From NCBI GenBank assembly GCA_913057775.1, contig CAJXOG010000002.1, forward strand, positions 372,001 to 436,000: a DNA stretch of 64,000 nt. Reading direction: 5' to 3'. The stretch is from an uncultured Fodinibius sp. Lineage in GTDB: Bacteria > Bacteroidota > Rhodothermia > Balneolales > Balneolaceae. A program made the translations under genes and the position numbers. The first letter of the stretch is position 1, and the number at the start of each line of letters is the position of its first letter. This document shows, piece after piece, positions 56,817 through 58,853 of the stretch. The notes beneath the pieces were generated by a model, which saw only the letters and a program-made list of their open reading frames with translations, was not told the DNA's origin and searched no databases.

Positions 56817-57659
56817 TTAATCCAACATTACCGGATTTTTGATGAATTCTTCAGGAATTTTTTTCTGATTAACACCTAGCCCAAACAGCGCGTAATCGTA
56901 TTTAGCGGGATCTTGGGGATCCAGCAGCTGAAGCGCTTCAGTAAGTTCCTGTACCGCCCACCAGTCGTTATAGGTTCGGGAAAGAAGCCCCAGTGCCCGT
57001 GCTTGTCGTGCGACATGTACATCGAGAGGAATCATTAATTCTGATTGCGGTAAAAAGTTCATCAATCCCAAGTCTACGGGACTCTTATCTCGCACAGCCC
57101 ATCGCAAAAAGAGATAGAGTCGCTTGCAGGAACTCTTTTTATCAGCATTGGATACGTGTTTGCGTGTGCGCTGCGGTGCTTCGGGATGCTGGGCAAAGAA
57201 CTGCTCGTGAAAGACCGACATCAGCGGCCTGTTATTTTCATTAGCTTTTTGATAGCAATATGCCCAGAAATTCTCAAAAGAATTGTAATCCCGTAGAATG
57301 GTCTGCAGAATTTTCACCAGCCACTTCATATCGATAGGTTTGAAGGTACGGTGTTTGAATCCTTCGAAACGGTGAGCATCGCGGTCAGAAAAATTGGCAA
57401 TAAAATCGGCGGGACGATTATCCATTCGGTCCAAAAAATCGCGCACTTTTCTAATAACCACATCACGACGTCCCCATGCCATGGTAGCTGCGAAAAATCC
57501 GGCTAAAAGCTGGTCTTCTTTTTGATTGAATGCGTGCATAAAAAGGATGGGATCATCATCGACATAATCGGGCTGTTCGATTTTTTCCACCCAGTTATCC
57601 AGAAAGGATTTAAGCTCTTTGATTTCATCGGGTGATCGTTTTTGAAGCTCTGGTGGCAT
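56817..57659 (-). CDS. TIGR02757/DUF2400 family protein
   Basis: A ~280-residue protein of the TIGR02757 (DUF2400) family, common in Bacteroidota. Motifs are FAATMAWGRRDVVIRKVRDF, KRLYLFLRWAVRDKSPVDLG and IPLDVHVARQARALGLL, suggestive of a helix-hairpin-helix/DNA glycosylase-like fold. The frame extends upstream to 57707, but that N-terminus (MLKQVQHD...) is encoded by a palindromic repeat, so I place the start at ATG 57659. It lies downstream of mutY, which fits a link to DNA metabolism. Confidence 0.88.
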   Translation of the reverse strand: MPPELQKRSPDEIKELKSFLDNWVEKIEQPDYVDDDPILFMHAFNQKEDQLLAGFFAATMAWGRRDVVIRKVRDFLDRMDNRPADFIANFSDRDAHRFEGFKHRTFKPIDMKWLVKILQTILRDYNSFENFWAYCYQKANENNRPLMSVFHEQFFAQHPEAPQRTRKHVSNADKKSSCKRLYLFLRWAVRDKSPVDLGLMNFLPQSELMIPLDVHVARQARALGLLSRTYNDWWAVQELTEALQLLDPQDPAKYDYALFGLGVNQKKIPEEFIKNPVMLD

Positions 57660-57682
57660 TGGTGGTTTTTTTTGATAAGAAG

Positions 57683-57753
57683 TGTCATGCTGAACTTGTT
57701 TCAGCATCTAAAGGATAAGGTAATAAAGATCCTGAAACGAGTTCGGGATGACA
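57683..57753. repeat. REP-like palindromic unit between mutY and the DUF2400 gene
   Basis: Two 27-base arms (57683-57709 and 57727-57753) are imperfect reverse complements with four mismatches and a 17-base middle. The left arm begins TGTCATGCTGAACTTG, the right arm ends GAGTTCGGGATGACA. Sequences of this type are common intergenic palindromes in many bacterial genomes. It would form a long hairpin in the mutY-DUF2400 transcript. Confidence 0.8.
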
Positions 57754-57758
57754 TAGAG

Positions 57759-58853
57759 TTATATCTGTAGTTCCTGCTGTCCTTTATCCAGATTCATCAG
57801 CTTTTCGGTAAGCTTGCGATTGGCTTTAGGAAAGGGGTAGTCTTTTAATTCATCAATAGCAATCCAGCGGATTTCCTGGCTCGATTTCGGTTTGGGGGTT
57901 CCATTCGCCAATTCACATAAATAAGCATGCAGTGTAATTTTAAAATGAGAATACGCATGGTCGAGCTTCATAAACGGTTTCGAAATTGAAACATCAATAT
58001 CTAACTCTTCTTTAAGCTCGCGCTTTACAGTATATTCCACATCCTCGTCTTCTTCCTGCTTGCCGCCGGGAAACTCCCACATACCGCCCAGCATCGCATC
58101 GTCTGGTCGCAGGGCAATAAGAACTTCTTCAGCTTCATTCAACACAATACCCACGCCGATATTATGGTGCGGACGTTTCTTTGCGGATGATTTATAAGGG
58201 ATCTCTTCGGTTTTTGCTGTTTTGTAGGCTACGCAATTTGCTTGGATGGGACATTTTTCACAATCAGGATTGGAAGGCGTGCAAATAGTTGCGCCTAATT
58301 CCATTACTGACTGATTAAAATCACCGGGTCGTTCTTCAGAAATGAGATCGTCAGCAGCATCTTGTATAGTATTTTTTGTGGATGTACTTCGAACATCATT
58401 TTCAATGCCGAGGTACCGACTTAGTACCCGAATCACATTTCCATCCACAACAGCGTGCTTTTTTTGATAAGCGATACTCAGTACTGCCGATGCCGTATAA
58501 GGTCCTACGCCTTTGAGTTCAGTGATGTCATCCCAGTTGTCAGGGACCTTGCCGTCGAACTCATCAACTACAAGCTTTGCCGAAGCATGTAAGTGTCGAG
58601 CGCGGCTGTAATATCCGAGCCCCTCCCACACTTTAAGCACTTCTTGTTGATCAGCCTCGGCCAGATCATGTACTGTGGGAAAGTGCTCCATAAAACGATT
58701 GAAATAGGGATTGGCCTGATCCACGCGGGTTTGCTGTAGCATAATCTCGGAGACCCATATTTTATAGGGATTATCACAGTCGCGCCAAGGCATCTCACGT
58801 TTGTTTTGATCGTACCAATCCAACAAAAGGTTTTGAAATGTACCCTTATCCAA
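57759..58853 (-). CDS. mutY: A/G-specific adenine glycosylase MutY
   Basis: Removes adenine opposite 8-oxoguanine; 364 residues. The catalytic Glu lies in SEIMLQQTRVDQ, the helix-hairpin-helix is LKGVGPYTASAVLSIA and the Asp is in VVDGNVIRVLSR. The 4Fe-4S ligands have the normal C-x6-C-x2-C-x5-C spacing (CTPSNPDCEKCPIQANC). The C-terminal NUDIX-like domain keeps a Nudix box (FPGGKQEEDEDVEYT then VKRELKEEL). It sits 34 bases downstream of the propeller/Ig gene. Confidence 0.96.
   Translation of the reverse strand: MDKGTFQNLLLDWYDQNKREMPWRDCDNPYKIWVSEIMLQQTRVDQANPYFNRFMEHFPTVHDLAEADQQEVLKVWEGLGYYSRARHLHASAKLVVDEFDGKVPDNWDDITELKGVGPYTASAVLSIAYQKKHAVVDGNVIRVLSRYLGIENDVRSTSTKNTIQDAADDLISEERPGDFNQSVMELGATICTPSNPDCEKCPIQANCVAYKTAKTEEIPYKSSAKKRPHHNIGVGIVLNEAEEVLIALRPDDAMLGGMWEFPGGKQEEDEDVEYTVKRELKEELDIDVSISKPFMKLDHAYSHFKITLHAYLCELANGTPKPKSSQEIRWIAIDELKDYPFPKANRKLTEKLMNLDKGQQELQI

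Follow-up and report, generated by a model that had tools for sequence, protein, structure and literature searches.

A 71-bp inverted pair of short palindromic repeats between mutY and a DUF2400 gene of an uncultured Fodinibius sp. is most likely a non-autonomous, REPIN-like element. Comparison of sequences makes it likely that its autonomous counterpart is a unit in which a stand-alone GIY-YIG nuclease gene is bordered on either side by a REP. This reading is supported by the position of the gene between inverted REPs of matching type, by homologous units at unrelated sites that often end at the REP edges, by related replicons that differ in having the unit, and by at least two REP pairs that are internally deleted units. 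We also lean, with less assurance, toward the broader proposal that REPs tagged CGTC or TGTC are miniature relatives of an unrecognized class of mobile elements, the sole gene of which codes for a stand-alone GIY-YIG nuclease acting on the hairpins at its own ends, and which dispenses with HUH and DDE transposases alike.

The Palindrome and its Neighbours

Within the window, i.e., the whole stretch of 64,000 nucleotides that was analysed, positions 57683–57753 consist of two inverted 27-nt arms located in the intergenic region between mutY and DUF2400, both of which are encoded on the minus strand. The features are as follows.

56817–57659, minus strand: DUF2400 gene from its likely true start, 280 aa (PF09674; MPP start also in the congeners G002, G003, and G005)
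57660–57707, minus strand: probable false N-terminal extension MLKQVQHDTSYQKKPP, encoded by part of the left arm and the bases that come after it; absent from the 12 other genomes compared
57683–57753, no strand assigned: TGTC-tagged inverted REP pair, tags outward, 71 bp (sequence, copy counts, shuffles, DNA fold, and congener remnants)
57683–57709, plus strand: left REP arm with TGTC tag, 8-bp stem ATGCTGAA/TTCAGCAT, 5-nt loop, and CT tail (sequence; predicted hairpin)
57710–57726, no strand assigned: 17-nt spacer separating the REP arms (sequence)
57727–57753, minus strand: right REP arm with TGTC tag, stem ATCCCGAA/TTCAGGAT with one mismatch, 5-nt loop, and CT tail (sequence)
57759–58853, minus strand: mutY-like upstream gene (HhH-GPD and NUDIX_4 domain matches; start as given in the list of open reading frames)

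Counted by eye, the arms are complementary to each other at 23 of 27 positions. Four positions distinguish them, and two of these differences face each other within the stem, where a G-C pair of one arm corresponds to a C-G pair of the other; the base pair is thereby retained. Both arms bear the TGTC tag, which remains single-stranded in the hairpin predicted for the isolated left arm (the hairpin of a lone arm was folded computationally for the left arm and read by eye for the right one), and their tails read CTA and CTT. A chance palindrome is ruled out by the shuffled-window comparison, in which a degenerate arm pattern allowing up to 3 mismatches gave 2 matches in the window vs. 0 in 100 shuffles, and by the folding of the 71 nt, for which z-scores of −7.6 (plus strand) and −5.7 (minus strand) were obtained as single-stranded DNA and of −6.5 as RNA. 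The REP-like palindrome reported in the initial annotation is therefore real, with its 27-nt inverted arms and 17-nt spacer. The span then assigned to it, 57660–57753, also takes in the 23 bp separating the start codon from the repeat. An inverted-repeat search of the window did not list the palindrome, probably because it lacks an exact 9-base seed.

The Start of the DUF2400 Gene

The longest DUF2400 frame occupies minus-strand positions 57707 to 56817 and opens with MLKQVQHDTSYQKKPP inside the left arm. The PF09674 match covers residues 52–279 of this long frame, and an internal ATG at 57659 begins the sequence MPPELQKRSP. Among the 13 genomes compared, the MLKQVQHD extension is unique to the source genome. 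The starts in G003, G002, and G005 read MPPEL, MPPDL, and MPPEF, respectively, with an in-frame stop just 5′, and such a stop lies directly upstream of the MPP/MPK start in G009 as well. At the orthologous site, remnants of a REP pair are clear in G003, G005, and G002 (in the latter as one fused palindrome), and weaker remnants were recognised by eye in G006, G007, and G009. In G001, if a GTG is taken as the start of DUF2400, it lies 3 bases from the mutY stop, without an intervening repeat. Together, the starts and stops of the congeners, the remnants, and the junction in G001 argue that the repeat is an insertion that provides a spurious N-terminus, and MLKQVQHD is best read as false, a view already expressed in the initial annotation and borne out by the 13-genome comparison. 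The accompanying remark that this peptide is a familiar artefact of many genomes found no confirmation, as no mention of MLKQVQHD was found in the open-licence PMC literature. An ancestor of several Fodinibius species probably acquired the window pair at this intergenic site between mutY and DUF2400, and chance would have left an in-frame ATG for DUF2400.

A Multi-Copy Repeat that Fits the CGTC/TGTC-Tagged REPs

The arm pattern (up to 3 mismatches) occurs at 36 places in the 3.1-Mb source genome, the reversed control at 0, and at up to 2 mismatches the arm is found in 13 of 38 genomes, source genome included. The repeat had been predicted to be multi-copy, a claim that uniqueness in the genome would have overturned; with 36 copies genome-wide, it is far from unique. 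The copies are mainly intergenic: 26 of the 30 examined overlap no ORF of at least 100 aa, and 3 of the 30 meet a longest frame of such length only at its beginning. One copy (L001, 1501–1525; source genome, G000:C1) lies wholly within a 343-aa frame near its N-terminus; either the start of that frame is spurious, or the copy inserted into a gene.

By its sequence, the window arm fits the family of REPs tagged CGTC or TGTC. As characterised in the available text of the survey by Di Nocera et al. (2013; PMC3733652), these share with the window pair a CGTC/TGTC tag, an 8–9 bp stem opening with AT, a 4–5 nt loop, a short tail, and a mainly intergenic arrangement as opposite-orientation dimers, often heterodimers; their hosts include alphaproteobacteria, Neisseria (dRS3), and Bacteroidetes. 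The unpaired tag found at one end of each REP of this family is CGTC, TGTC, or CCTC, and in the window it is TGTC rather than a GTAG-type tag. The left arm combines an 8-bp stem with a 5-nt loop, and the right arm deviates by one mismatch. The tail of the family is mostly CCA, which is present in some of the other loci, vs. CTA and CTT in the window. In the same text, CGTC-tagged REPs “apparently lack a dedicated transposase” and the mover of the superfamily is named as an open question, whereas the repeats studied here enclose a gene for a GIY-YIG nuclease.

A GIY-YIG Nuclease Gene between Inverted REPs

Some copies are paired in the opposite, tags-inward order, roughly 430–550 bp apart. In the source genome, one such pair (G000:C3:35373–35829), with starts 432 bp apart, encloses a 102-aa GIY-YIG ORF, and a protein search of the 38 genomes turned up further GIY-YIG genes enclosed by such pairs: two each in G003 and G007, and others in G002, G004, and G021. 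All 16 aligned members match PF01541, and the residues invariant in the alignment include Y14, Y25, R35, H39, E72, and N91. By these features, the partner protein is a member of the GIY-YIG nuclease superfamily with a putative DNA cleavage activity. The fold nearest to its AlphaFold model (mean pLDDT 86.7) is that of the UPF0213 protein 1zg2 (E 4e-4), the Slx1 and UvrC domains being weak further matches (E 0.03 and above). UPF0213 GIY-YIG proteins (PDB 1zg2 and 1ywl) are also the closest solved relatives by sequence, and have the same size of about 100 aa and single domain. Ten weakly matching GIY-YIG loci of relatives, taken without finer classification, are without tagged REPs. The source genome has a second, distant GIY-YIG gene (L225, 966–1241; G000:C9), with no tagged REP in the 2.2 kb examined.

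Association across Genomes, Phyla, and Plasmids

The association was assessed on the best 80 of at least 565 loci confirmed in a protein-only scan, a set that leans to close relatives. A CGTC/TGTC hairpin lies within 500 bp of the gene in 67 of these best 80 of 565, on both sides in 48, and hairpin density in the same best 80 loci was 2.63/kb near the gene (207 in 78.6 kb) vs. 0.14/kb far from it (49 in 356.8 kb). Among relatives, 12 of 20 strong GIY-YIG matches have a tagged REP within 500 bp. A joint set of 97 loci brings together the 80 from the protein scan (best of 565) and 17 from relatives; L033 and L057 (duplicates of L061 and L070) and L059 were omitted, and the 10 weak matches served as a control. 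With any first base of the tag allowed, a tagged REP was found within 500 bp in 80 of the 97 and none in the remaining 17; 63 loci have REPs on both sides, in inverted arrangement in 54. The nearest flanking REPs of these 63 two-sided loci point their tags outward in 37, inward in 17, and in the same direction in 9. Outside ORFs, tagged REPs reach 5.79/kb vs. 0.40/kb in the other non-ORF DNA of the same loci, a ratio of 14, and when no foot was prescribed, GTC was the most common foot of the hairpins (221 of 1436), followed by TCA (205). None of the 10 weakly related GIY-YIG loci has a tagged REP, and none of 10 Y1_Tnp loci has a CGTCA-type REP within 500 bp, 3 of them carrying other TGTC hairpins. 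DUF2400 loci, of which the longer 26 of 30 served as a further control, have a tagged REP in 3, all at the site of the window.

REP-bearing loci span 15 named phyla, many of them from metagenome bins, a source in which contigs may be assigned wrongly. Among the genomes that contain 44 of the 80 loci, GAA-type REPs occur in 35, at 2 to 170 copies. Across 296 genomes of the phylum, the nuclease (E ≤ 1e-25) was detected in 30 of the 32 with at least 10 GAA-type REPs vs. 91 of the 264 others (Fisher p 4e-11, a statistic that ignores phylogeny). The exceptions in this test, rich in REPs and without a close nuclease, are G264 and G008, and the same holds for G005 and G009. Two stretches drawn from G264 and G008 (L226 and L227) contain no tagged REP.

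In a plasmid collection, 34 records matched, and 11 of the 14 examined have tagged REPs, CCTC tags included, within 500 bp of the gene, the exceptions being L188, L190, and L194. On plasmid AZO_p3 of Azospirillum lipoferum 4B (L187, 1376–1884), a GIY-YIG gene between two REP pairs interrupts the Fe-S cluster operon, with sufB on one side and sufC on the other. On plasmid p1 of Planktothrix agardhii (L190, 1498–1782), a related GIY-YIG gene has an MmeI-type restriction enzyme on one side and the DISARM gene drmA on the other, and the stretch contains no tagged REPs. Record NZ_CP119142.1 of Neisseria gonorrhoeae (2.17 Mb), labelled as a plasmid, is probably the chromosome. It carries a GIY-YIG gene in an array of CGTC repeats (CGTCATTCCCGC...; L185, 766–2109) that resemble dRS3, judging from the available text of the 2013 survey (PMC3733652), which suggests that Neisseria dRS3 shares the GIY-YIG partner.

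Co-Variation of REP Type with the Nuclease

REP similarity tracks protein similarity (Mantel rho 0.38, reached in 0 of 2000 permutations). Between phyla, tested on the 68 REP-bearing loci of known phylum (from the best 80 of 565), rho was 0.40, vs. a mean of 0.22 and a maximum of 0.37 when REPs were permuted within phyla (0 of 2000). Because the within-phylum permutation still yields a mean of 0.22, part of the between-phyla correlation is host descent. On a nuclease tree built from 95 columns, in which many forks are unsupported, four REP labels, “none” included, require 24 changes vs. 39.5 when shuffled (0 of 200). Taken singly, the GAA type requires 14 changes vs. 32.0 (a value as low in 0 of 500 shuffles), the GCG type 9 vs. 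11.5 (8 of 500), and other REP types 11 vs. 13.3 (12 of 500). One supported clade (17 rows, SH-aLRT 96) unites several phyla, and 9 of its 12 REP-bearing rows have the GCG type.

Unit Edges, Empty Sites, and Internal Deletions

Of 40 pairs of units that were aligned, 7 have both ends of their homology within 2 nt of the outer REP edges (L206 with L208, L218 with L220, and five Fodinibius pairs), and in several others this is true of one end. Since shared REPs alone would extend an alignment as far as the REP edge, this evidence rests on equal spacing and continuous homology. Three near-identical unit pairs of G231 share 51–64 nt beyond the REPs, so that the shared block is wider there than the unit; other pairs end short of the REP edges, and distant pairs align within the gene only.

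Sites with and without the unit, as befits a mobile element, were found in three genera. In Sphingobium, the unit is covered in 7 of the 11 records matching both sides and is missing from 4 plasmids, and 4 filled and 4 unfilled records were aligned. At the sufB/sufC site, Azospirillum ramasamyi, oryzae, and B510 are without the unit vs. lipoferum with it, as is Sinorhizobium K101 vs. Ak57. The aligned records without the unit are 4/4 for Sphingobium, 3 for Azospirillum, and 1/3 for Sinorhizobium. No target-site duplication was recognised at the aligned filled and empty sites, the flanks of which have diverged.

The loci scanned contain 89 distinct spacers of 30–220 nt that separate opposite REPs, and pieces of the nuclease persist in 2 of them: a Sinorhizobium meliloti spacer encodes residues 68–94, 93% identical to the adjoining full copy, and that of L076 encodes the first 26 residues, 81% identical. 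These pieces show that REP pairs can arise from units by internal deletion. The resident unit has its tags inward and the window pair outward, which means that the window pair cannot have come from the resident unit by simple internal deletion; it must derive from a tags-outward unit, of the kind that occurs in G016 and G231, or by another route. Short alleles were identified by eye in two of the four Sphingobium plasmids without the unit (TYG64 and TYG74), in Sinorhizobium K101, and in Fodinibius G002. They consist of a single palindrome that joins the outer halves of the two arms, with a tag on both sides (L195, L196, L202, and G002:C1:75540–75566, the last being the window's orthologous site). 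Such a fused palindrome is either the scar of a deletion or a homing site that has stayed uncut.

Alternative Explanations

The Seg proteins of phage T4 are free-standing GIY-YIG homing endonucleases, encoded by small stand-alone genes that spread selfishly, and we know of no REP borders or non-autonomous palindromic derivatives for enzymes of this type. The GIY-YIG gene could likewise parasitise REPs that spread by other means, its nuclease cutting the palindromic REP and the gene homing into it, leaving REP halves at its borders. We regard this as improbable. GIY-YIG is a known homing-nuclease fold (from the available text of PMC1564403), and the short alleles resemble the split homing site that would be expected, with the outer arm halves fused. 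However, such a palindrome is equally explained as a deletion scar between stems, and congeners carry fuller pairs at the G002 site. It does not qualify as a common target either: for the GAA type, only 5 of 38 genomes of the relatives set have it. The nuclease pieces within two REP pairs also count against homing, as they show that pairs can arise from units, and Y1_Tnp, the one other mover looked for, is absent from the source genome.

Movement by a RAYT, i.e., a Y1 tyrosine transposase as in GTAG REPs, with the GIY-YIG association secondary, is very unlikely. The REPIN/RAYT system (TnpA-REP; available text of PMC3116915 and PMC8266576) likewise has an inverted REP pair as its proposed mobile unit and a gene tied to cognate REPs, with co-evolution of enzyme and REP; it differs in having an HUH tyrosine transposase instead of a GIY-YIG nuclease, and a GTAG instead of an NGTC tag. 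PF01797 genes do occur in 19 of the 38 relatives' genomes, among them G008 and G009, which are REP-rich and without a close GIY-YIG gene. Nevertheless, a profile search for PF01797 (Y1_Tnp) found 0 matches in the source genome, where the initial annotation had proposed to look for a REP-associated tyrosine transposase, and 0 in the repeat-carrying congeners G002, G005, and G007. Together with the lack of the CGTCA type at the Y1 loci (0 of 10), and with the available text of the 2013 survey, in which no CGTC REP flanks a tyrosine transposase gene (PMC3733652), this leaves a RAYT unsupported as the partner.

Equally hard to credit is an ordinary terminator or mRNA-stabilising hairpin with the GIY-YIG proximity due to coincidence or passive build-up at dispensable genes: a strong RNA hairpin is indeed predicted between two co-directional genes, but 36 near-identical copies rule out a plain terminator as the whole story, and the inverted arrangement, the co-variation with the protein, the unit edges, and the negative controls all speak against it. 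An effect of the palindrome on mRNA is a prediction from the RNA hairpin, and it may have a regulatory side effect.

Proposed Mechanism and Significance

The preferred reading remains that of an autonomous REP–GIY-YIG–REP unit, which would span roughly 360–550 bp. The nuclease may recognise the REP hairpin, as a cruciform or as single-stranded DNA, and cut there, after which repair or replication would copy the REP-bounded segment; gene-less REP pairs such as the one in the window would then be moved in trans. A search of the open-licence PMC literature, a scope outside of which most subscription papers and preprints fall, found no report of a GIY-YIG/REP pairing among the titles and opening abstract lines of the papers listed. 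The main text of the RepRanger paper has no mention of “nuclease,” “GIY,” or “transposase,” and “palindrom” does not occur in the available text of the 2006 GIY-YIG survey.

For annotators, the window pair is a warning that such repeats create false gene starts. For genes annotated merely as “GIY-YIG nuclease family protein,” the proposed unit offers a likely role, and with a small named enzyme, the question of what moves the CGTC REP superfamily becomes testable in vitro.
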